IMG/VR virus record: IMGVR_UViG_3300037063_000020
Location: 1-23,394 of that record
Source of the DNA: a virus
Reading direction: 5' to 3' (one strand)
Length of the DNA: 23,394 nt
Positions 523 through 16,480 of this stretch are shown one piece after another. The notes under the pieces are model-generated. The model was not told the origin of the DNA. It did no database searches and saw only the letters and a program-made list of their open reading frames with translations. The stretch's first letter is position 1, and every line of letters begins with the position of its first letter. Position numbers and translations under genes: made by a program.

Positions 523-556
523 AAGGGACTCAGAGAGGCCTTCAACTGAGTCCCTT
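523..556. terminator. Hairpin terminator between convergent operons
   Basis: An 11-bp perfect inverted repeat (AAGGGACTCAG at 523-533 and CTGAGTCCCTT at 546-556) encloses a 12-base loop. Read on the minus strand, the stem is followed by ATTTTAAAA, which is T-rich enough for an intrinsic terminator of the late operon. On the plus strand no good T-run follows, so termination of the small plus-strand operon would be weaker. The hairpin sits between the stop of the plus-strand gene (519) and the stop of the last minus-strand gene (619). No gene is seen in the remaining 557-618. Confidence 0.8.
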
Positions 557-618: not shown

Positions 619-981
619 TCATTTGTGAGAAATCATCCCACTAACGAGAACTGTCAGGATAACCGCGATGAGCGGCGCGCCAACTGCGTACTCCGGAGAC
701 TGCCACCATGCGTTTTGCGGATGGTCATCTTGGATGCACTTGTTGTAGGCGACGTTTGTCGATTTCAGGTCCAGTTTGCAAACTTCAAAATCCTTTTTCT
801 GTTGCGCGAGAGCGTGGAGGTCCGAGCTCGACAAGGTGAAAGGATCAAGCTTTGGGCTTGGCGAAAGGATCGGCGTCGATGCTTGCGTCTGCGGCGTTGT
901 CTGATCCGCTCTGCACGTCAGTGATTGAAGCACGAACGATGTCAGCGTCAGACATACCAGAATACTTTTGATCGACCGCAT
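619..981 (-). CDS. Rz1-like o-spanin candidate or small secreted membrane protein (120 aa)
   Basis: The start at 981 is supported by GGAG seven bases upstream. The N terminus is a signal-like segment (basic MRSIK, then a hydrophobic stretch to about residue 22) followed by Cys23, but the sequence before the cysteine (SLTC) is not a canonical lipobox. A Ser/Thr/Pro-rich linker (26-50) and a short helical part containing C68 and C82 follow. Residues 98-116 after a WW pair form a hydrophobic segment. The gene begins inside the upstream 124-aa gene and overlaps it by 137 bases in the +1 frame, the arrangement known for Rz/Rz1 spanins. By that logic it would be the outer-membrane partner acting in lysis. 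The C-terminal membrane segment is atypical for an o-spanin, so a holin accessory protein is an alternative. It is the last gene of the late operon. Confidence 0.6.
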   Translation of the reverse strand: MRSIKSILVCLTLTSFVLQSLTCRADQTTPQTQASTPILSPSPKLDPFTLSSSDLHALAQQKKDFEVCKLDLKSTNVAYNKCIQDDHPQNAWWQSPEYAVGAPLIAVILTVLVSGMISHK

Positions 982-1219
982 CTTTGTTCTCCGTCTCTTT
1001 GAGCTTAGTTTTGAGCGCCTCGTTTTCTTTCCGAAGGCGATCCACTCTAGTCTCTTCGTAGTTGAACAAAGAAATCGCTAGGGCAGGCAGGACCGACGCC
1101 AAAACAGACCACAAACCTTTGAATACGTCGATCCAAGATGAAGCCGCGCCCGCTGCGGAAGTCGCTGCATTTGCGGCGTTTGTTACCTTCTGTTCAAGAT
1201 CGGTCCCGCCGTCACTCAC
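845..1219 (-). CDS. Rz-like i-spanin candidate, membrane anchor plus coiled coil (124 aa)
   Basis: The start is GTG at 1219, in a GTGA overlap with the stop of the upstream gene, with a GGGAAGG-like ribosome binding site before it. After about 30 mostly polar, Ala-rich residues comes one membrane segment (about 33-53, LWSVLASVLPALAISLF). A charged heptad-like helix follows (about 56-80, RVDRLRKENEALKTKLKETE), then an acidic, low-complexity C terminus. One N-terminal membrane anchor with a periplasmic coiled coil is the topology of inner-membrane spanins (Rz). Its 3' end overlaps the start of a signal-peptide-bearing gene in the +1 frame, as in Rz/Rz1. Its likely role is linking the inner and outer membrane in the last step of lysis. 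The assignment rests on topology and gene arrangement, not on sequence similarity. Confidence 0.6.
   Translation of the reverse strand: MSDGGTDLEQKVTNAANAATSAAGAASSWIDVFKGLWSVLASVLPALAISLFNYEETRVDRLRKENEALKTKLKETENKDAVDQKYSGMSDADIVRASITDVQSGSDNAADASIDADPFAKPKA
989..992 (-). promoter_or_regulatory. Ribosome binding site of the nested spanin-like gene
   Basis: On the minus strand GGAG lies seven bases before the ATG at 981, inside the coding sequence of the upstream 124-aa gene. It fixes the start of the overlapping gene and argues that the overlap is genuinely translated in two frames. Confidence 0.7.
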
Positions 1220-1707
1220 GAAGCCTTCCCAGTTAAGTCGGAGATAACTTTTTCCGCTTCGGCGACCGCACCGGGAGCAACCGCAGAGGCGGCGGCTACT
1301 GCACCGTTTTCAACTGCCGCCGTAGGTGACGACAAGTTTTGTACGACGCTGTCGAGGAGCTGGGAAATCTTCATGAAGCCCGAGCCTAAGAGACCACAAA
1401 CATTTCCGGCGACGATGAACAAAGACTTAGGATCTTTCGTCGGGAAGAAGCGCATACACAATTCGCCGAGGATCGCGAGAGCTGCCAAAATCCAAGCCGG
1501 TAGGCTAGATGGGATTTTGTTTACGACATTTTGAATGTCGGTAACAACTGCGGGCGAAGCCGGTGAAGCTTGGACTGCGGGTGAAGCCGTTGCTGCCGGA
1601 GCCGAAGCTGCGACTGGCGCTGGCGAAGCAACCGGCGCTGCCGATTGTGCGAATGAAGCGACTGGTAAAACCAGCGCAATAGCTAAAGCCAAAAATACTT
1701 TTTTCAT
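1216..1707 (-). CDS. Holin-like candidate with signal peptide (163 aa)
   Basis: The frame is open to 1743, but the start at 1707 is preferred because it has GGGAG just upstream and begins a clean signal peptide: MKK, a hydrophobic core, and ASFA before QS, with likely cleavage after residue 20. An Ala/Pro/Ser-rich linker (about 21-55) follows. Two hydrophobic segments come next, at about 69-88 (PAWILAALAILGELCMRFF) and 95-112 (SLFIVAGNVCGLLGSGF), separated by a short charged turn. The tail is Ala-rich and ends in DLTGKAS. Its position just before the spanin-like pair, its size and its two membrane segments fit a holin or lysis-timing membrane protein. The signal peptide and Pro/Ala linker are unusual for a classical holin. 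A structural membrane protein cannot be excluded. It overlaps the next gene by four bases. Confidence 0.55.
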   Translation of the reverse strand: MKKVFLALAIALVLPVASFAQSAAPVASPAPVAASAPAATASPAVQASPASPAVVTDIQNVVNKIPSSLPAWILAALAILGELCMRFFPTKDPKSLFIVAGNVCGLLGSGFMKISQLLDSVVQNLSSPTAAVENGAVAAASAVAPGAVAEAEKVISDLTGKAS

Positions 1708-1758: not shown

Positions 1759-2382
1759 TTACTTGGGATCTTCACCGCTTTTTTTCGAGCGGATTAAAAC
1801 CAGTTCTTCGGAGAGTTTAGTTTTGGTCGTGGCGTAATCTTTCGAAAGATTATCCATCTGAGTCTTCTGTACTTTTACGATCTCCGCGAAAGTACGCAGT
1901 GCTTTGGCGTGGGACTCAAGCGTCTTCGTTACGCCGTCAACTTGCCCACTGGTCTTGTCAATTTTTTGTTCAAATACTTCCGCTTTACCGAGAGTGCGAT
2001 CGACGACGACATGAATTTTATCGGCCTGTCTCTCTAATTGGTTTAGCTCATTATTGACCTTCGTTTGAGAGTCCATCGAGAAGGTTTTTAGGTCTTGGAT
2101 ATTCAGCGAGAGCTTTTGTTGAAAGTCCTGAGCCGAGCTCTTAAACGTCGCGATGTCCAGCCCAAGCTTACGCGAGTGGTCTTCCATCTTCTCGGCGAGT
2201 TTTTCCATCTTCGTTTCATGCGCGTGAAGTTTCTTTTTCACGCCCTCTGCTTCTTCATCAACGCCTTTGAAGTAGCGTTTTAGAAACCAGAGGGCCGCTG
2301 CCGAAACGAGCGCGAGCGCCGAGGTTAAAACCCAAACGAGAATTTCCATTCCTTCGTTGGTCTCGGGCTTCGGCATCCCCAT
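1759..2382 (-). CDS. Membrane-anchored coiled-coil protein (207 aa)
   Basis: The protein has one N-terminal transmembrane segment (about 13-34, EILVWVLTSALALVSAAALW) and then roughly 160 residues of almost uninterrupted charged helix with heptad character (KLHAHETKMEKLAEKMEDHS, and KALRTFAEIVKVQKTQMDNL). It ends in a basic and acidic tail. The start at 2382 lies three bases after the upstream stop. A second ATG at residue 12, directly before the membrane segment, is possible but has a poorly spaced ribosome binding site. The gene lies between the adhesin-like gene and the holin/spanin-like genes. I do not recognise the family. Topology would allow an i-spanin-like or cell-envelope-spanning role, or a superinfection or membrane protein, but nothing specific shows which. 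Confidence 0.65.
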   Translation of the reverse strand: MGMPKPETNEGMEILVWVLTSALALVSAAALWFLKRYFKGVDEEAEGVKKKLHAHETKMEKLAEKMEDHSRKLGLDIATFKSSAQDFQQKLSLNIQDLKTFSMDSQTKVNNELNQLERQADKIHVVVDRTLGKAEVFEQKIDKTSGQVDGVTKTLESHAKALRTFAEIVKVQKTQMDNLSKDYATTKTKLSEELVLIRSKKSGEDPK

Positions 2383-3021: not shown

Positions 3022-3858
3022 TTACGACAGGCTTGTTGAGAGCGTGAGCCCCATGAAAGATTCGAGCGCGTTCACGTAGCTCAAAATTCGAACTGCCGTC
3101 ACGTACTTCGAATCGTAGCTCGCCGTCGGGATTGCTTTCATGCGAGAGATCGCAACCGTCAAAGAGCCCGACTGCATCGCCGTCATCACAGGTCCCATCA
3201 AATCTAAAATCGCCTCTGTCTTACCGTCGGCGGTGATACCGAGCATGACGTTTTCAGTTTCGAACTGATCGACTTGTTGGTTGCCGAAAACTCGCGCCGC
3301 CGAAACTTGAGCTGCAACCGCAGCTTTCGTTGCGTTGAGCGTGGCGTTCGTTGCCTCCGGAGAAGACGAAGTCACCGCCGCCCAGTATTCTTGAATCTGT
3401 TCTGCGACGCTCGGAACGCCAGTTGGAGTGTTCGTCACCACCGCTGCAACCGCATCAACTCCGCCAGTCAACGAGATCGCCGAGTTTGAAAGTTCTTGCG
3501 TGGCATCGCCGCTCACGATTGAAACCGGCACTTCGGGATGAGCCGAGTTCCAAGCATCAACGCTCGATTGAAGCGGCATGTCCGGAAGGATCGGGATGCT
3601 GACGTTGCCAGCGACGCCCATGTTGTCGGCTTGAACTTTCACTCCGCTCACTGTGACCGAAGCCGCAACGCCTTGAACCGCAGCACTCGTGCTCGTGGTG
3701 AAAGGAGCAATGCTTTGATCCGACGTGTAGTGAAGCGAGAGATCGTAGTCGAGAGACGCCCCCGCGTAGTCGGTCGGGTGATTTGCTTTCACCCACGCCT
3801 CGACAGTCGGGACATCTACGGGGAACGATTTCAGCGGAAGGTTTACATCAAAAGTCAT
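3022..3858 (-). CDS. Hypothetical tail-fibre-associated protein (278 aa)
   Basis: A strong AAAGGAG ribosome binding site precedes the ATG at 3858, and the gene is packed 11 bases after the large fibre gene. The N-terminal part seems to contain an internal repeat: LPLKSFPVDVPTVEAWVKANHP near residue 10 resembles IPILPDMPLQSSVDAWNSAHPEV near residue 90. The middle is Val/Ser/Ala-rich. The C-terminal 110 residues are helical (NQQVDQFETENVMLGIT, LDLMGPVMTAMQSGSL, RILSYVNALESFMGL). There is no signal peptide or membrane segment. I do not recognise the family. Its place between the fibres and the glycine-rich adhesin suggests a fibre structural component, an adaptor or a fibre-assembly chaperone. 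Confidence 0.65.
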   Translation of the reverse strand: MTFDVNLPLKSFPVDVPTVEAWVKANHPTDYAGASLDYDLSLHYTSDQSIAPFTTSTSAAVQGVAASVTVSGVKVQADNMGVAGNVSIPILPDMPLQSSVDAWNSAHPEVPVSIVSGDATQELSNSAISLTGGVDAVAAVVTNTPTGVPSVAEQIQEYWAAVTSSSPEATNATLNATKAAVAAQVSAARVFGNQQVDQFETENVMLGITADGKTEAILDLMGPVMTAMQSGSLTVAISRMKAIPTASYDSKYVTAVRILSYVNALESFMGLTLSTSLS

Positions 3859-3869
3859 TTTCTTCTCCT

Positions 3870-6551
3870 TTAAGTTTCTTCGACAACGAGGGTTCGCGAT
3901 GTTGAGTCGGCAGTTACAGTTCCGGCTCCGACGTACCAGAAAACATCCACCTTATGCGTTCCGGCGCTGGCGGGTATTTTTAAAACGTCAGAGATCAAAC
4001 ATCCGTAAGCCGACTGCGGAGCGCGGATGTTTTTAAGAACTCCGACCGGAAGACCATCAACATAGAACTGCCAGAAGATTTGGTTCAATCCAGTGTTCTC
4101 GACTTGCGCTGAAAACGACAACCTCAAAGGTCCGCCGTTCGTTTTAACAACCGCACTCATGTCCGGCATCGGGATCGGAGAGGTTGATGAAGTGCTCGGG
4201 TTTACCGTAATACCAATGGCCTGAGCCCACGCCTTCGTTGTCGGAACGGGATCTTTAATCGGCGTGAACTTTCGGTTGTCGCTGATCGCGCAGCTTCCGA
4301 TTGACGAAGCCGCTTCCAAGTCGCCGTACAGGTTTGCTTTAACCGAGTGAACCGGCGTGATGATGTCGAAGGCTTCGATCGGCATCGCTGATCCGCTGTT
4401 GTACGCGAACTTCACCGTATGAAGTCCGAGAGTGAGGCCAGTGATCGAAACGCCAGAGCCATAGTTGTTCGCCGTGTTCGTGACGACAACGCCGGTTGTT
4501 GCAGAGAAGCTTGTGACGCCGCCGTAGAAGCTTGTCGTCGCTCCAAGGCCCGTGAGGTTCGACGAACCATCAATCGAGACCGTGTAGTTTCCTGCCGTCG
4601 TTCCAGGGATGCCGAAGCGCAATTCAACGCCAGTTCCGAAGAACGTGTATTGAACGTAGTTTCCTGACGTCGATCCGTTGATGATCCAACCTGCGACCGC
4701 AGCGTTGGTTGTGCCCGTGCCAACTTCGATCGTCGCAGACCAGCTTCCAACGTAAGTCAGCTCTCGTGTTGATGCCTTTCTCAAGACACCGCCAGAAATA
4801 AACTCCGCGCCCGCCGTCGTGTTTGGAGAGTAGTTCGCCATGATGTTGAAGTCGCCAATTTCGATCGCGCCCGAAGGAAGTGCAGGCTTCTTCGGTTGAT
4901 AAACGATGAATTGAGCAACCGCGATGTCGTAAGTCGAAGCGGAGATTTTTCTGATTTCAAAAGTGTGCGTTCCGTAAGGAAGACCTGATGCAATTTTTTG
5001 AGTCCTCCAGATTGTCGAACCCGCAGCGGCGGCGTTGAAAATAGAAACGCCGTCAATGTAGAAGGCGTATGTGTCAGACCCGCCATTGACGACGTCTGAT
5101 CGAACGATGTCGAGGCCGGTCCCAACGAAGGTGAACATGATCGCGGCAGGAGATCCGCCAGTGTTCATTGCATCGCGACCGTTGAAAACCGAAGCCACGC
5201 CTTGAATCGAACTCAGAGTCGTTGTTCCGTCATCGAGCGTAAATGCTTTTGCCGTGGTTGAGTTGTTTAAAAAATCATCTCCTCGGCTCGCCGAGAACTC
5301 ACGGAAGAAATATGATTTAACCAGCTCTTCGTTCGCGTGAGAGGCGGCGGTCAAGTACGACGGTGAAGTCGCATTTTGAGTGAACGCCTGCGAGCGGACT
5401 CCGGAAGAAGAGATGTATTCGAGAACTCGTCCGCCCGTCGTTCCGACCAGCGCCGCGTTGTAGGCGAGCGTCGATTGAGAGGCGAGAACTAATTTTTGTC
5501 CCTGACTGTAAGCCACGCCAGGGGTGACGGACACAAGGTTTGAACCCGCCGAAACCTGATTGACGATTTCAAAACCAAACATGCCAATTCCGGCAGCATT
5601 GTTGTTTCTTAATTTTACGGTATGAACACCCAAAGAGAGACCAGAGATGGCAACGATTGGTGCGTTCACGCTGTAGTTACGAGCCGCTAAGACGCCCGAA
5701 CCCGAAAGAGTTATGTTTGATCCTTCGCTTCCACCATCGACGGAAACGCGAATGTCTCGGTTCGCGATGTCTACGTTGGTGAGTAAATTTAAACCCGTAC
5801 CGTAGAATGTTACTTCCATGTAGTCGGTCAAGCTGGCGCTACTGGCGATGCCCTGACCGGCAATGCTCAAGAAATTTGACCACTGACCTACGAATCTAAT
5901 TTGGTTGAAGATGTCGCCGGTCGATCCCCAGATCGGATCGCTGTTCGGACCAGCCTCAGACAAGATCTGATAAATGTACTGAGTCATCAAACGCTCGATA
6001 CCGAGGCGCGGTTTTAAATCCTGAGAGAGATCCACCATCGACGAACGACCGATGATCGAAGAGTAGAACGTGCCAGCGATCGGAGCTCCCGCAGTTGTCG
6101 AAGCCGCGCTGACCGCGTCTGTCTGGCTCACGAAGGGTTGGAAGCCAGCGCCTTGAGCCGCATAGAGCTGCACGAAGCGGTTGTCCATACCGAATTGAAT
6201 TTCTGATTTGAGACCAAGTTTGAAGGCGCGGATGTTCAATCCCGCAGCGGGGATCGCTGCGTTCATCGTGATCTGCGAAGAAGTTCCGTCAGTCGCGACC
6301 GCCGTGAAAGTAAAATCGGCAGAGACCGTCATGTACTTTCCGTCGATAAACAAAAAGAATATATCTGTAAATGCCGTTGTTGATCCGTTCACCGCAGCTT
6401 GGATTGAAAATCCCAAGTTGATGACAGTTTGGTTTAACGTCGAAACCCCAGTAAACGAAGCGATCACTGGTTGTTGCGGAGAAAAAGGGAGATCGTTTCC
6501 GGTTCCCTTTTTGACGTTCGCCTTTGCGTTCAAGTTTTGCGTTAAGCTCAT
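3870..6551 (-). CDS. Large tail fibre protein with repeated galactose-binding-like modules (893 aa)
   Basis: The start at 6551 is set by AAGGAGAG. Residues 1-134 are a distinct N-terminal region with a beta module (FLFIDGKYMTVSADFTFTA). From about residue 135 (GFQPFVSQ) to the end the protein is homologous to the last 762 residues of the upstream 1327-aa fibre. Within this block at least three modules share the pattern FxGTG, then a VDG/IDG turn, then GLxxGxHT (MEVTFYGTGLNL; MFTFVGTGLDIV; YTFFGTGVELRF). This is typical of galactose-binding-like beta-sandwiches. A fourth beta region ends in HKVDVFWYVGAGT. A conserved helix-like segment (MVDLSQDLKPRLGIERLM) may help trimerise the fibre. The role is host recognition at the tail tip, with the modules as candidate glycan-binding domains. 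The length and order suit a structural fibre and there is no enzyme motif. Confidence 0.85.
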   Translation of the reverse strand: MSLTQNLNAKANVKKGTGNDLPFSPQQPVIASFTGVSTLNQTVINLGFSIQAAVNGSTTAFTDIFFLFIDGKYMTVSADFTFTAVATDGTSSQITMNAAIPAAGLNIRAFKLGLKSEIQFGMDNRFVQLYAAQGAGFQPFVSQTDAVSAASTTAGAPIAGTFYSSIIGRSSMVDLSQDLKPRLGIERLMTQYIYQILSEAGPNSDPIWGSTGDIFNQIRFVGQWSNFLSIAGQGIASSASLTDYMEVTFYGTGLNLLTNVDIANRDIRVSVDGGSEGSNITLSGSGVLAARNYSVNAPIVAISGLSLGVHTVKLRNNNAAGIGMFGFEIVNQVSAGSNLVSVTPGVAYSQGQKLVLASQSTLAYNAALVGTTGGRVLEYISSSGVRSQAFTQNATSPSYLTAASHANEELVKSYFFREFSASRGDDFLNNSTTAKAFTLDDGTTTLSSIQGVASVFNGRDAMNTGGSPAAIMFTFVGTGLDIVRSDVVNGGSDTYAFYIDGVSIFNAAAAGSTIWRTQKIASGLPYGTHTFEIRKISASTYDIAVAQFIVYQPKKPALPSGAIEIGDFNIMANYSPNTTAGAEFISGGVLRKASTRELTYVGSWSATIEVGTGTTNAAVAGWIINGSTSGNYVQYTFFGTGVELRFGIPGTTAGNYTVSIDGSSNLTGLGATTSFYGGVTSFSATTGVVVTNTANNYGSGVSITGLTLGLHTVKFAYNSGSAMPIEAFDIITPVHSVKANLYGDLEAASSIGSCAISDNRKFTPIKDPVPTTKAWAQAIGITVNPSTSSTSPIPMPDMSAVVKTNGGPLRLSFSAQVENTGLNQIFWQFYVDGLPVGVLKNIRAPQSAYGCLISDVLKIPASAGTHKVDVFWYVGAGTVTADSTSRTLVVEET

Positions 6552-7104: not shown

Positions 7105-10100
7105 TTATTGCTCCTTCACCATCAGTGATCGTGCGTTTGTCCAACAAAGGACCGAAGCTCCGGTTCCAGAGAACCAGTAGAGATCGACCTTGTGAACTCC
7201 GGCAGATACCGGCCACAGAATAGTTTGCGAAACCACAGAGTAAGTGTTTGATCCCGTTCCCTCTGCGATCAGACCGTTCAATCCCGCTGGCCCTGCAAGC
7301 TGACCATCGACATAGACATAGAACTCGCCGTAAGCACCTGCCGAAGGCGTGTAGAGCGTGATGGAATACGAGATCATTATCAGGCCAGCATTGGTTTTCA
7401 CCGTCGCTGACATATCCGGACAAGGCACCGGAGATGTCGAGGTCGTTGATGGTTGAGAGACGACCCCGTAAGCCATAGACCAAGCTTTCGGTTGAGCCGA
7501 GTTGTCTTTCAAAACCGTCAACTTCCGGTTATCAGAGAGTGCGTTTGATCCGATCATCAACGTGTTTTGTTGATCTCCGACTTCTGATTTCGCAGAGTAA
7601 ACCGGAGTGATGATGTCGAGTGCTTCCATGACCATGACTGATCCGCTTGTGAGCGTGATCGTGACCGTGTGAAAGCCGAGAGCCAAACCGTTTAAGTATG
7701 CTCCGTTGCCGTAAGCGCCGCTCGTAGCCGCAGTGGTGATGAGGCCCGTGCCCGCGTTGAAGCTTGTGAAGCCCGTTCCATAGCCGCCCGTCGTTGCTCC
7801 GAGCGAAGTCAGGTTGGTTGTCCCATCGACCGCGACCGTGTACGTGCAGACCGTTGACGGATGCGAGTAGCGGAAATCAAATCCCGTCCCGAAGAACGTG
7901 TACTTGTAAATCGCGCCGCCCGTTGCTGTCAGAAGTCGAAGGCCTGCAATCGCACACGCTGTTCCGGTTGCGACCGAAGCATCCGTGGTGAAAGTTCCGT
8001 TGTACGGAATGATCTCTCGGACAGCGGCTTTGCGCAAAATACCTTGAGCGACGCCCGCTGATCCTGGGACCGTGTTTGCGATGAACGGAGCCATCACGCA
8101 GTAGTCCGCAAGCTCCATTGCTCCCGAAGGAAGCGTTGGTTTTTTTGGTTGATAAATAGCGAAGCTGATAAGCGAGTATTGTCCCGCAGTCGCCGTCGTC
8201 AAAGTCAGAAGAACCGTGTGGGTTCCGTAAGGAAGACCAGAGACGATCTTTGAAGTTCCGACTCCGCCCACTGGGATGTTCGGAACGGTGAATCCAGTTC
8301 CGCCATCAATCGAAGCCGTGATGACAAGATTGATGTTAGAGCTCGCGGTTGATTGAATGTCACAACCAGTTCCGACGAACGTGAGCTGGAAGGTTTGTCC
8401 CGTCGCCGAGTACGCAAAGCCTTCGACGTTGTTCAACGTCTGAGCGGAGATATTCGAAGCGGTGAGGGTCGTCGTTCCGTCGTCCAAAGTGTAGAACGCC
8501 GAGCGAGTCGTGGTTAAATAAGAGAAGTCATCACTTCTTCCGGCCCCAAATTCGCGGACGTAAAATACGCGGTATGGGTCTTCGTTCGTGTGATCTGCCG
8601 AAGCTCCGGTCGCCGCTGCCGAGTTTACCGGCGTGAAGGCCTGAGCTACGACTCCCGCAGAAGAGAGATATTGGAGAACGCGCCCGCCACGAGTCCCTGT
8701 CACCGCCGCGTTGTACGCGATCGAAGACAAAGCGTTGAGGGCGAGCTTTTTCCCGCCGACATAAGCGACGCCAGGAGTTGTTACGACCGCTGTCGAGTTG
8801 AGGATCTCAAAGCCGTAAATCACGCTGTTCGTCGTGGTTCCGGTCGATACGAATTTCACCGTGTGAATACCCGCAGTCAGGCCGGTCGCAAGCGGGATGA
8901 TCTGGTTGAGAGATTGCTGTCTTGAGATAAGGATGTTCGTTCCTGCCGGAGTCGAGCTGCTTGTTGCGGTCGCGCCGTCTACGCTGACAGTGTACGGACG
9001 AGCCGCTGAGTCAGTGTAAATAACTACGTTCAAGCCCGTGCCGTAGAAGGTGACTTCGAAAAAGTCGGTGCCTGTCGCGCCCGCAAGAATGAGTGGTCCG
9101 CTCGCGTTCGAAGTCGGAGCCGTCCAGTTCCCAACGAACCGGATCTGGTTGAAGAGATCGGTCGCAGAAGCAAAAACCTGTTCACCGTTCGGGCCGAACT
9201 CGTTTTGAAGCTTTTGGAGTTGTTGAACCATGATCCGCTCGATCGCCATGTGGGATTTTAAATCCTGCGAGAGATCGGGCATCGCTGAGCGAGTGGGGAT
9301 TGAAGACCAGAAAGTTCCGGCAACCGGAGAGCCCGCCGTCGTCGTTGCGTTCAAGACTTGCGCTTGGCTCACGAACGATTGGAAACCGTTCGACATAATC
9401 TCTTGTTGAGATGCGATGTTTGTTGAGTTTTGCGAAGACCCATCGAGAAGTTGGACGGTGTAAATAAGAGAGATTGAAAGTGGCTGAGAAGAGTAGTCGC
9501 GATCGAGAGCGATCGTGCGTCCATCAACTTCGGTGTAGTACGCATCCGTCGCAGGCGTTGAATCTGAAACGAAGCGGTCGAGTGAGATGCCGTTCAAAAG
9601 AACTTCGAGCGCACCGACAGTCGCACCCGGCAGAGCCCCAACCGGGTAAGTGTTGTTCGTTACTTGAATCGTCGTCTTACCGCCAACCACGCTGATCGAA
9701 CAGTTGAGTGGAGTCGTTGATCCGTTGGTCATCCCGAAGGTTGACCAGAGAGTGTTCGCTGTTCCGGCAGCGGTCAAAACCTTCTGCATGAACGCGCGGT
9801 AAGAGATCAGATTCACCGTACCAGAACCAGACTGAGCATTTGAGAACCATCGCAAGTAGAGCGAAGTCCCTGCCGAAGGCAGAATCACACTCGAAATCTG
9901 CGTCGATGCACTCGAAGGCCGTGTTTGGTTCGCCGTCCAGTTTGTCGCATCCGGTGAAGCTGCGAAGCCCACGAGAGGAGTCAGGTTCGGCGTGTAAATG
10001 TTTGATCCTGAAATCGCGTTGTCTTTGTAGTCCACCATGATTTCGGAGAACGTCGTTGATCCGAACTCAGATGAAAGTGCGACTCCGTCGATTGCAGCAT

Positions 10101-11088
10101 TGTAAATATCTTTAGTGTGAACCGCTTGAGAGAGCGTGACTTGTCCGCCAGTCGTCGGAGCCGAAGCGAAGGCCTCAGTCGTCAGATTGGTTTGCGAAGT
10201 CACCGCTGTAACTTTGCGAGTCGCTCCGCCATAAATGACAACGTCGCCAGGAGCGACGGTGTAAGAAGGAGCCGCGCTTAAAAGGATGTTCGTGGTCGTC
10301 GAGCCCGCAGCGATTGTTTTCGCCGCATCGTAGGACATCGTCCACATGCTTTTTGCGGGAGAGTACACGGCGTTTGTTTTTGCCGTCGTCGCATCAACCG
10401 CAGAGTTTGTCGAGACCGTTCCTTCTGAGAACAGTTCGTTGAAGCTTGCTTGAAATTGAAGTGAGTCGAGATCGTCGCCGATCCCGTTGCCGCTGCCTGA
10501 TCCGCTGCCGCCCGAACCCGATCCAAAAAGGTGAATCGTCGAAACGCCGCCGACCGAGTTCTCGATGATGTTCGTCGCCGAGCCTGCGGTTTTGAAAGCC
10601 GAAGTGCCGGTTGCAACGAGGTCAACCCAACCAAGTGCCACACCGCCAGAGATAAATAAAGAGCCTGGGTTTGGAACCGCTGCGAGAGTCGAAGCGCCAG
10701 TCGAGAAGAGAGCTTGCACTGATCCGCCTGCGATCATCGTGAAGCCTACGCGGTAAAACAGACCTACCGTAGCCGCAGGGAAGGTGATCGTTACCGATCC
10801 ACCCGTGACCACTCCCGTTTGGAAGTTGATCGTGGTTGCCACAAAGGAGTTTACGACAGAACTGATCGGCGGGACTGAGAGTCCAGTGCCGTCAGATTTG
10901 ATGATCTCCTGAGCTGCGATATTCAGGTTTGCGTCAGAAGGATTGGAAGCGAACATTCGAAGCGGGAGAGCCGCGTTCGAATCAAGCGAGCTGAGAAGGC
11001 CGTCTCCGGTCGTCCCCGCTGGTTGACGTAGCACGGGAAGCGCATTGTTATTTACGAATTGATCGGTTTGAAACTCAGTCTTACTCAT
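7105..11088 (-). CDS. Long tail fibre protein (1327 aa)
   Basis: GGGAG precedes the ATG at 11088. The N-terminal 190 residues carry a beta-rich region (NFQTGVVTGGSVTITFPAAT), followed by a Ser/Gly hinge at about 189-200 (GSGSGGSGSGSG) and a helical segment (LDSLQFQASFNELF). Residues 220-565 hold more beta-rich regions, including LEVLLNGISLDR with a DRDYSSQ turn. From about 566 (GFQSFVSQ) to 1327 the protein is paralogous to the 893-aa fibre. It has the same PDLSQDLKSHMAIERIM segment and the same series of FYGTG / FVGTG / FFGTG modules with VDG/DGG and GLxxGxHT elements. The likely role is a trimeric fibre linking baseplate to receptor, with the shared C-terminal block as the binding region. 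The flexible hinge suggests an articulated shaft. No catalytic motif is visible. Confidence 0.87.
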   Translation of the reverse strand: MSKTEFQTDQFVNNNALPVLRQPAGTTGDGLLSSLDSNAALPLRMFASNPSDANLNIAAQEIIKSDGTGLSVPPISSVVNSFVATTINFQTGVVTGGSVTITFPAATVGLFYRVGFTMIAGGSVQALFSTGASTLAAVPNPGSLFISGGVALGWVDLVATGTSAFKTAGSATNIIENSVGGVSTIHLFGSGSGGSGSGSGNGIGDDLDSLQFQASFNELFSEGTVSTNSAVDATTAKTNAVYSPAKSMWTMSYDAAKTIAAGSTTTNILLSAAPSYTVAPGDVVIYGGATRKVTAVTSQTNLTTEAFASAPTTGGQVTLSQAVHTKDIYNAAIDGVALSSEFGSTTFSEIMVDYKDNAISGSNIYTPNLTPLVGFAASPDATNWTANQTRPSSASTQISSVILPSAGTSLYLRWFSNAQSGSGTVNLISYRAFMQKVLTAAGTANTLWSTFGMTNGSTTPLNCSISVVGGKTTIQVTNNTYPVGALPGATVGALEVLLNGISLDRFVSDSTPATDAYYTEVDGRTIALDRDYSSQPLSISLIYTVQLLDGSSQNSTNIASQQEIMSNGFQSFVSQAQVLNATTTAGSPVAGTFWSSIPTRSAMPDLSQDLKSHMAIERIMVQQLQKLQNEFGPNGEQVFASATDLFNQIRFVGNWTAPTSNASGPLILAGATGTDFFEVTFYGTGLNVVIYTDSAARPYTVSVDGATATSSSTPAGTNILISRQQSLNQIIPLATGLTAGIHTVKFVSTGTTTNSVIYGFEILNSTAVVTTPGVAYVGGKKLALNALSSIAYNAAVTGTRGGRVLQYLSSAGVVAQAFTPVNSAAATGASADHTNEDPYRVFYVREFGAGRSDDFSYLTTTRSAFYTLDDGTTTLTASNISAQTLNNVEGFAYSATGQTFQLTFVGTGCDIQSTASSNINLVITASIDGGTGFTVPNIPVGGVGTSKIVSGLPYGTHTVLLTLTTATAGQYSLISFAIYQPKKPTLPSGAMELADYCVMAPFIANTVPGSAGVAQGILRKAAVREIIPYNGTFTTDASVATGTACAIAGLRLLTATGGAIYKYTFFGTGFDFRYSHPSTVCTYTVAVDGTTNLTSLGATTGGYGTGFTSFNAGTGLITTAATSGAYGNGAYLNGLALGFHTVTITLTSGSVMVMEALDIITPVYSAKSEVGDQQNTLMIGSNALSDNRKLTVLKDNSAQPKAWSMAYGVVSQPSTTSTSPVPCPDMSATVKTNAGLIMISYSITLYTPSAGAYGEFYVYVDGQLAGPAGLNGLIAEGTGSNTYSVVSQTILWPVSAGVHKVDLYWFSGTGASVLCWTNARSLMVKEQ

Positions 11089-16034: not shown

Positions 16035-16052
16035 TGTGGTAAACACACCACA
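16035..16052. promoter_or_regulatory. Short inverted repeat at the homing endonuclease start
   Basis: TGTGGT (16035-16040) and ACCACA (16047-16052) form a 6-bp stem around a 6-base loop. The stem ends on the A of the endonuclease ATG. On the plus-strand transcript it could cover the weak translation start, and hairpins that hide ribosome binding sites are known for phage homing endonuclease genes such as I-TevI. The stem is short, so this is tentative. On the minus strand it lies about 20 bases upstream of the gpI-like start. Confidence 0.3.
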
Positions 16053-16480
16053 TGATTAAAGTTGATCCAAGAGACCAAATGCTTTTTGAAAGTCGCAAGT
16101 GGGCCGCTGACAAGCGTGGATATATTCGAGCAATGATCGACGGGAAGCGCGTCTCCCTTCACCGTCTCATCATGAAAGCGAAGCCTGGGCAGTTTGTTGA
16201 CCATGCGAACGGAGACAAGTCCGACAATCGTCGGTCGAATCTTCGCTTTTGTACGCCAAGTCAAAATGCCCATAACAAGCCAGGTCCAAATAAATTCAAG
16301 GGCGTTACGAAGGGAAGGCCAGGATACCGTGGAAATTTCCGAGCCCGTATCAGGCATGGTGGTAACGCCATTGAACTCGGCCATTTCATGACCGAACGCG
16401 AAGCTGCGCTCGCTTACGATCAAAAGGCTAAAGAGTTGTTTGGTTCGTTTGCTCATCTAAATTTCCCTACCCAACGATGA
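16052..16480 (+). CDS. HNH homing endonuclease with AP2 DNA-binding domain (142 aa)
   Basis: The first half is an HNH_3-type nuclease core: SLHRLIMKAKPG with H37, VDHANGD with D50 and H51, then DNRRSNLRFCTPSQNAHNK with the conserved asparagines (N58, N63, N72). Residues about 81-138 match an AP2/ERF-like DNA-binding domain (FKGVTKGRPGYRGNFRARI, then GHFMTEREAALAYDQKAKEL, then FAHLNFP). HNH-AP2 proteins of this size are freestanding homing endonucleases that cleave endonuclease-free alleles and spread by recombination. The gene is antisense to the late operon and sits exactly between the J and gpI-like genes. Its end overlaps the end of J by 14 bases without disrupting J. No good plus-strand ribosome binding site is seen, so expression may be low. 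Confidence 0.92.
   Translation: MIKVDPRDQMLFESRKWAADKRGYIRAMIDGKRVSLHRLIMKAKPGQFVDHANGDKSDNRRSNLRFCTPSQNAHNKPGPNKFKGVTKGRPGYRGNFRARIRHGGNAIELGHFMTEREAALAYDQKAKELFGSFAHLNFPTQR

Follow-up and report, generated by a model that had tools for sequence, protein, structure and literature searches.

A conserved overlapping pair of membrane-protein genes in a probable phage lysis cassette: a candidate spanin-like system whose second protein lacks a lipobox

RESULTS

The overlapping genes and their surroundings

We analyzed a 23-kb virus fragment from IMG/VR (IMGVR_UViG_3300037063_000020, 23,394 nucleotides; the whole stretch is referred to here as the window). Its minus strand carries baseplate and tail-fibre genes and then four small membrane genes. 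The third of these encodes an i-spanin-like (ISP-like) protein and the fourth its putative partner. The features are as follows.

1759 to 2382, minus strand: gene for a 207-aa protein with an N-terminal transmembrane (TM) segment and a long coiled coil
1216 to 1707, minus strand: holin-like gene, 163 aa, with two hydrophobic segments besides a signal sequence
845 to 1219, minus strand: ISP-like gene, 124 aa, GTG start
989 to 992, minus strand: GGAG Shine-Dalgarno sequence, 7 bases 5' of the partner ATG
619 to 981, minus strand: partner gene, 120 aa, ATG start
845 to 981, minus strand: overlap of the two genes, 137 bp, the partner lying in the +1 frame of the ISP-like gene
523 to 556, minus strand: intrinsic-terminator-like hairpin 3' of the partner gene, followed by UUAUUUU

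A sequence-only reading of this DNA had described an Rz/Rz1-style pair closing the late operon, with a 137-base overlap in the +1 frame and a GGAG spaced 7 bases from the nested start. We recovered both open reading frames, with positions 845 to 981 common to the two, and the GGAG at 989 to 992. The first base of the partner gene is the second base of an ISP-like codon, and the stop of the holin-like gene overlaps the ISP-like start by 4 nt (GTGA). The location at the end of the operon was also borne out: the tail and fibre genes lie upstream, the pair comes last, and the hairpin (-19 kcal/mol, z -3.64; not listed by a simple terminator scan) stands behind it. Since this terminator-like hairpin with its U-rich tail follows the partner gene, the late operon probably ends there. 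The fragment itself ends 618 bp beyond the pair, and within this end two small plus-strand genes (65 to 519), convergent with the late operon, gave no family matches. Elsewhere in the window, an HNH endonuclease gene (16052 to 16480, plus strand; phrog_99, E 2e-38) sits between two minus-strand baseplate genes. Two long fibre proteins (3870 to 6551 and 7105 to 11088) share repeat-like motifs (GGRVL and EFGAGRSDDF/EFSASRGDDF), and relatives carry varying numbers of such repeat-motif fibre genes (e.g., L037 and L064).

The first protein had been described as a membrane anchor plus coiled coil and the second as having a signal-like N terminus and a C-terminal hydrophobic segment, and both descriptions agree with our analysis. 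The ISP-like protein consists of an N-terminal tail, a single TM (residues 35 to 53, mean KD 1.65), and a charged coiled-coil-like helix, with an SDxDIV motif at the C-terminal end. After the TM, its predicted structure is one long helix (pLDDT 66.5, which is low and derives from two sequences). This architecture fits an i-spanin. The charge bias flanking the TM does not decide orientation: lambda Rz and P2 LysB show the same bias, and the positive-inside rule was dropped as an orientation test. The partner combines its signal-like N terminus with a putative periplasmic region, the motif WWQSP, a C-terminal hydrophobic segment (residues 99 to 117, KD 2.37), and a short tail ending in lysine. 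Of its four cysteines (residues 10, 23, 68, and 82), Cys68 and Cys82 fall in the periplasmic region. An AlphaFold model of the partner (pLDDT 49.9, two-sequence alignment) was not used for fold searches.

Conservation of the pair in a related phage

An open +1 frame was considered as evidence for the second gene and rejected: when the first gene was recoded synonymously 5000 times, the frame across the overlap stayed open in 3428 cases. In the non-overlapping part of the partner, codon usage scored +15.8 bits in its own frame versus -46.8 and -51.4 for the two remaining forward frames. Inside the overlap the ISP-like frame carried the signal (+20.5) and the partner frame was neutral (-1.8).

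Relatives were reached through the tail genes and not through the pair itself. One of them, G006 (IMGVR_UViG_3300020186_000001, a 108-kb contig), has the same four genes in the same order and place: a TM plus coiled-coil gene, a signal plus TM gene, and the following pair.

L009 1408 to 1695: ISP-like gene of G006, with an ATGA start overlap
L009 1607 to 1948: partner gene of G006, with an 89-bp overlap and GGGAG 7 bases before the ATG

The Shine-Dalgarno spacing of the two partner genes is thus identical. Between the window and G006, the partners are 27% identical over 73 aa (shuffle Z 11.8) and the ISP-like proteins 31% over 62 aa (shuffle Z 8.0), and the holin-like proteins are weakly similar (Z 3.3). 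Without the signal and the C-terminal TM, the partners still scored Z 8.1; most of this similarity comes from the region around WWQxP, without which Z was 3.1. The WWQxP motif, the C-terminal membrane segment, and Cys68 are conserved in both partners. Conservation of the overlapping frame in related phages, on which the sequence-only reading had made its proposal depend, was therefore found in G006, where both proteins are homologous. The strongest evidence for the pair is this comparison of sequences. Codon usage, together with the conservation of both proteins and of their overlap in an independent phage, lifts the pair above chance, and the overlapping gene pair is real.

Scanning an initial set of relatives for a TM gene overlapped by a signal plus C-terminal-TM gene returned the window and G006 places and otherwise three chance-looking frames in one locus. 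Pfam and PHROGs gave no family match for the partner and no usable match for the ISP-like protein. A weak match of the latter to phrog_739 (Rz-like spanin; E 0.005) was not above the coiled-coil background and was discarded as a sign of spanin identity; the 207-aa coiled-coil protein matches this family too. Searching 50,697 phage records by tblastn with the pair (E up to 10) yielded no relatives, the matches being 26 to 47% over short stretches in unrelated genes, and scanning viral and genome contigs with the pair proteins or their alignment also yielded none. The partner family so far has two members, both from environmental phages.

The corresponding region in other relatives

The upstream order of fibre genes, holin-like gene, ISP-like gene, and partner is common to the window, G006, G014, and G016. 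In these four, the slot behind the holin-like gene holds an overlapping pair, and in G014 and G016 the partner is lipoprotein-like. The genes in these relatives and in a third, G008, are as follows.

L046 13387 to 13725: ISP-like gene of G014
L046 13643 to 14059: partner gene of G014, lipoprotein-like, LNGC
L051 19058 to 19429: ISP-like gene of G016
L051 19362 to 19790: partner gene of G016, lipoprotein, ISSC
L032 17311 to 17592: ISP-like gene of G008, at the contig end; a lipoprotein-like frame (NSGC) overlaps it and is truncated there

The pairs of G014 (L046 13387 to 14059) and G016 (L051 19058 to 19790) resemble the window pair in occupying the same slot, where the late genes end, in the same tail clade, with overlaps of 68 to 83 bp, but their partners are cysteine-rich and lipoprotein-like and lack a C-terminal TM. 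These two partners are mutually homologous (E 1e-9 in a set of 29 proteins) and not clearly homologous to those of the window and G006 (a weak 33% over 45 aa, E 0.03); the apparent exchange of the partner therefore rests on shared position and not on traceable descent.

In G014 (IMGVR_UViG_3300023179_000001, locus L046), the order is a TM-coiled coil gene, a signal plus TM gene, the pair, and, convergent with it, an Amidase_2 gene (48 bits, over the cut-off). G016 (L051) has a homologue of the window gene at 3022 to 3858 (L051 17927 to 18490; 36%, E 5e-25) upstream of its holin-like, ISP-like, and lipoprotein genes. The G008 cassette (L032) contains a TM-coiled coil gene and Amidase_3, and a similar pair closes its late genes. 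In G017 (L054), a TM-coiled coil gene and Phage_lysozyme are followed by a gene whose product is homologous to the holin-like protein of G006 (Z 13.4). Genes of the TM plus long coiled-coil type thus recur in the G006, G014, G008, and G017 cassettes, with weak or absent pairwise similarity.

The region corresponding to the window cassette is a lysis region in several relatives (G014, G008, and G017). Because the G014 and G016 slot holds a lipoprotein pair and endolysin genes adjoin the region in G014, G008, and G017, the window region most probably represents a lysis cassette, in which the pair would take the spanin slot. A function outside lysis, in which the two membrane proteins target the host envelope or superinfecting phages and close the late operon by chance, would fit the observation that no endolysin gene was seen within the window fragment and that none was found in G006 with Amidase_2, Amidase_3, Phage_lysozyme, or Peptidase_M15_3 (four Pfam families). 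Given the lysis genes in the corresponding region of G014, G008, and G017, we regard it as very improbable. The pair could also set the timing of lysis. The partner would then be an antiholin or a holin regulator, periplasmic and anchored in the membrane, and the ISP-like protein would be a holin or its sensor. The pair does lie directly behind the holin-like gene, and secreted holin regulators such as T4 RI exist (PMC8385771). However, the same slot holds an overlapping TM-protein/lipoprotein pair, the spanin pattern, in two relatives, and the overlap architecture is itself typical of spanins, which makes a timing role unlikely.

One further pair, in G018 (L074 17224 to 17490 and 16896 to 17312, minus strand), is alike in that an N-terminal TM coiled-coil gene is overlapped, by 89 bp, by a gene for a protein with a signal, a coiled coil, and a C-terminal TM like that of the window partner. 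The G018 partner contains no cysteine at all, and, in contrast to the window, a nearby Phage_holin_4_1 gene runs in the opposite orientation to this pair. No sequence similarity between the G018 and window partners was detectable, and kinship between them was dropped.

The second protein and the lipobox

O-spanins are lipoproteins of the outer membrane that carry a lipobox and no other membrane anchor, and a u-spanin combines an N-terminal lipoylation signal with a C-terminal TM domain. We applied the lipobox rule [LVI][ASTVI][GAS]C. The sequence SLTC (Cys23), which had been read as a non-canonical lipobox, does not fit this rule, having Thr at -1 and Ser at -3. The G006 partner has no cysteine before residue 40, that is, none in or just after the signal region, so a lipobox is not conserved. 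Judged by eye, a signal peptidase I site is plausible in both proteins (TCRA/DQ in the window and MTKA/QE in G006). The rule is passed by lambda Rz1, T1 gp11, and the G016 partner and failed by P2 LysC and the G014 partner, so it is not decisive alone. The C-terminal TM has a KD of 2.37 in the window and 1.96 in G006, with one or two basic residues after it in both; the C-terminal KD is below 1.1 in lambda Rz1, P2 LysC, and the G014, G016, and G008 partners, and a C-terminal TM is absent from all of the o-spanin-type controls.

On these sequence features, the partner does not qualify as an o-spanin, having no valid lipobox and a conserved C-terminal membrane segment. Nor does it qualify as a u-spanin, as the C-terminal TM domain is present and the N-terminal lipoylation signal absent. 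An unusual true o-spanin or u-spanin would require lipoylation at Cys23 and an outer-membrane location, with the C-terminal TM spanning the inner membrane, as that of T1 gp11 does, and the ISP-like protein as a helper. The layout of signal plus C-terminal TM is that of a u-spanin, with T1 gp11 scoring likewise, and the non-standard lipoboxes AWAC and LNGC occur in spanins, AWAC having been shown to be functional (PMC6139136). The deviations of SLTC at -1 and -3, the G006 homologue without an early cysteine, and the signal peptidase I sites in both proteins nevertheless make such lipoylation quite unlikely.

Because SLTC fails the rule, G006 lacks a signal-region cysteine, and the WWQxP motif and C-terminal TM are conserved, the pair is not a canonical Rz/Rz1 pair. 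Of the i-spanin/o-spanin layout proposed earlier, the overlapped arrangement stands and the o-spanin assignment is not supported; a spanin identity in the broader sense keeps in its favor the position at the operon end, the conserved frame, and the lipoprotein pairs and endolysins of relatives. The two oddities flagged at the outset, SLTC and the C-terminal segment, were correctly spotted and reflect conserved features, not noise.

A scan for a strict lipobox with a Shine-Dalgarno sequence found none in the window; the same scan missed a probable lipoprotein in G006 and is not exhaustive. Just upstream of its cassette, G006 encodes a 325-aa protein with a good lipobox (L010 8607 to 9584; ITSC). 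A homologue (L054 2773 to 3807; 26% over 338 aa) precedes the G017 lysis genes. This protein could serve as an alternative partner in the outer membrane; the window lacks a counterpart.

DISCUSSION

Among two-component spanins, P2 LysB/LysC represents the overlapped type and lambda Rz/Rz1 the embedded type. Two-component spanins are required to disrupt the outer membrane and complement Rz/Rz1. In the i-spanin, one N-terminal TM precedes a periplasmic domain that is usually a coiled coil, and periplasmic cysteines are absent from about 4% of two-component complexes. The window pair resembles overlapped spanins in gene order, in the +1 overlap, in a first protein with TM and coiled coil, in a secreted second protein, and in its place as the last genes of the cassette behind a holin-like gene. 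Spanin genes are overlapped, embedded, or adjacent, in or near the lysis region; here the overlap is 137 bp and the lysis genes are seen in relatives. The pair differs from overlapped spanins in that the window and G006 partners have no lipobox and carry a conserved C-terminal TM and WWQxP, and in that their ISP-like proteins have no periplasmic cysteines, so that the conserved Cys68 of the partner would supply the periplasmic cysteine of the complex. An export signal with a C-terminal TM recalls the unimolecular spanin T1 gp11. However, the partner has no lipoylation signal, no sequence similarity to T1 gp11 was seen, and in both members an overlapping coiled-coil TM gene lies beside it.

We give roughly an even chance to the pair closing a lysis cassette and acting as a non-canonical two-component spanin-like system. 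In our reading, the outer partner of such a system would be replaced by a type I inner-membrane protein. For the topology, pairing, lysis role, and outer-membrane action of the pair we infer the following. The ISP-like protein would cross the inner membrane once, its coiled coil facing the periplasm. Export of the partner would rely on its signal sequence, which signal peptidase I may cut or which may be kept as an anchor; the protein, with the conserved Cys68, would then lie in the periplasm, and its C-terminal TM would fix it to the inner membrane in a type I topology. The periplasmic helices of the two proteins would bind each other, Cys68 being a possible disulfide site. After an endolysin has removed the peptidoglycan, the pair would help break the outer membrane. 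Several observations count against the spanin-like reading: the partner matches no Pfam or PHROGs family, no endolysin gene was seen in the window fragment or found in G006 with the four Pfam families, the ISP-like proteins lack periplasmic cysteines, and the pairs of G014 and G016 are not clearly homologous to this one. In addition, if both proteins sit in the inner membrane, neither can be seen to extend to the outer one.

A more general idea, which we hold only tentatively and consider somewhat doubtful, is a lipoprotein-free spanin, in which an inner-membrane coiled-coil protein and a type I inner-membrane protein break the outer membrane without a lipid anchor there. A type I inner-membrane protein has been named as a possible spanin topology outside the criteria of a spanin survey, which came up without a spanin for 91 of 677 phage genomes and, in 7 of 16 examined, without a single lipoprotein frame (Kongari et al., PMC6139136). 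The window and G006 pair offers a concrete, conserved candidate for this topology, in a slot where relatives keep a lipoprotein. If the pair works as a spanin, tools that detect spanins by their lipoprotein overlook a class, and the outer membrane can be disrupted without a lipid anchor in it. A lipoprotein-free spanin, if true, would offer one explanation of how lysis is completed by phages in which no spanin can be identified.
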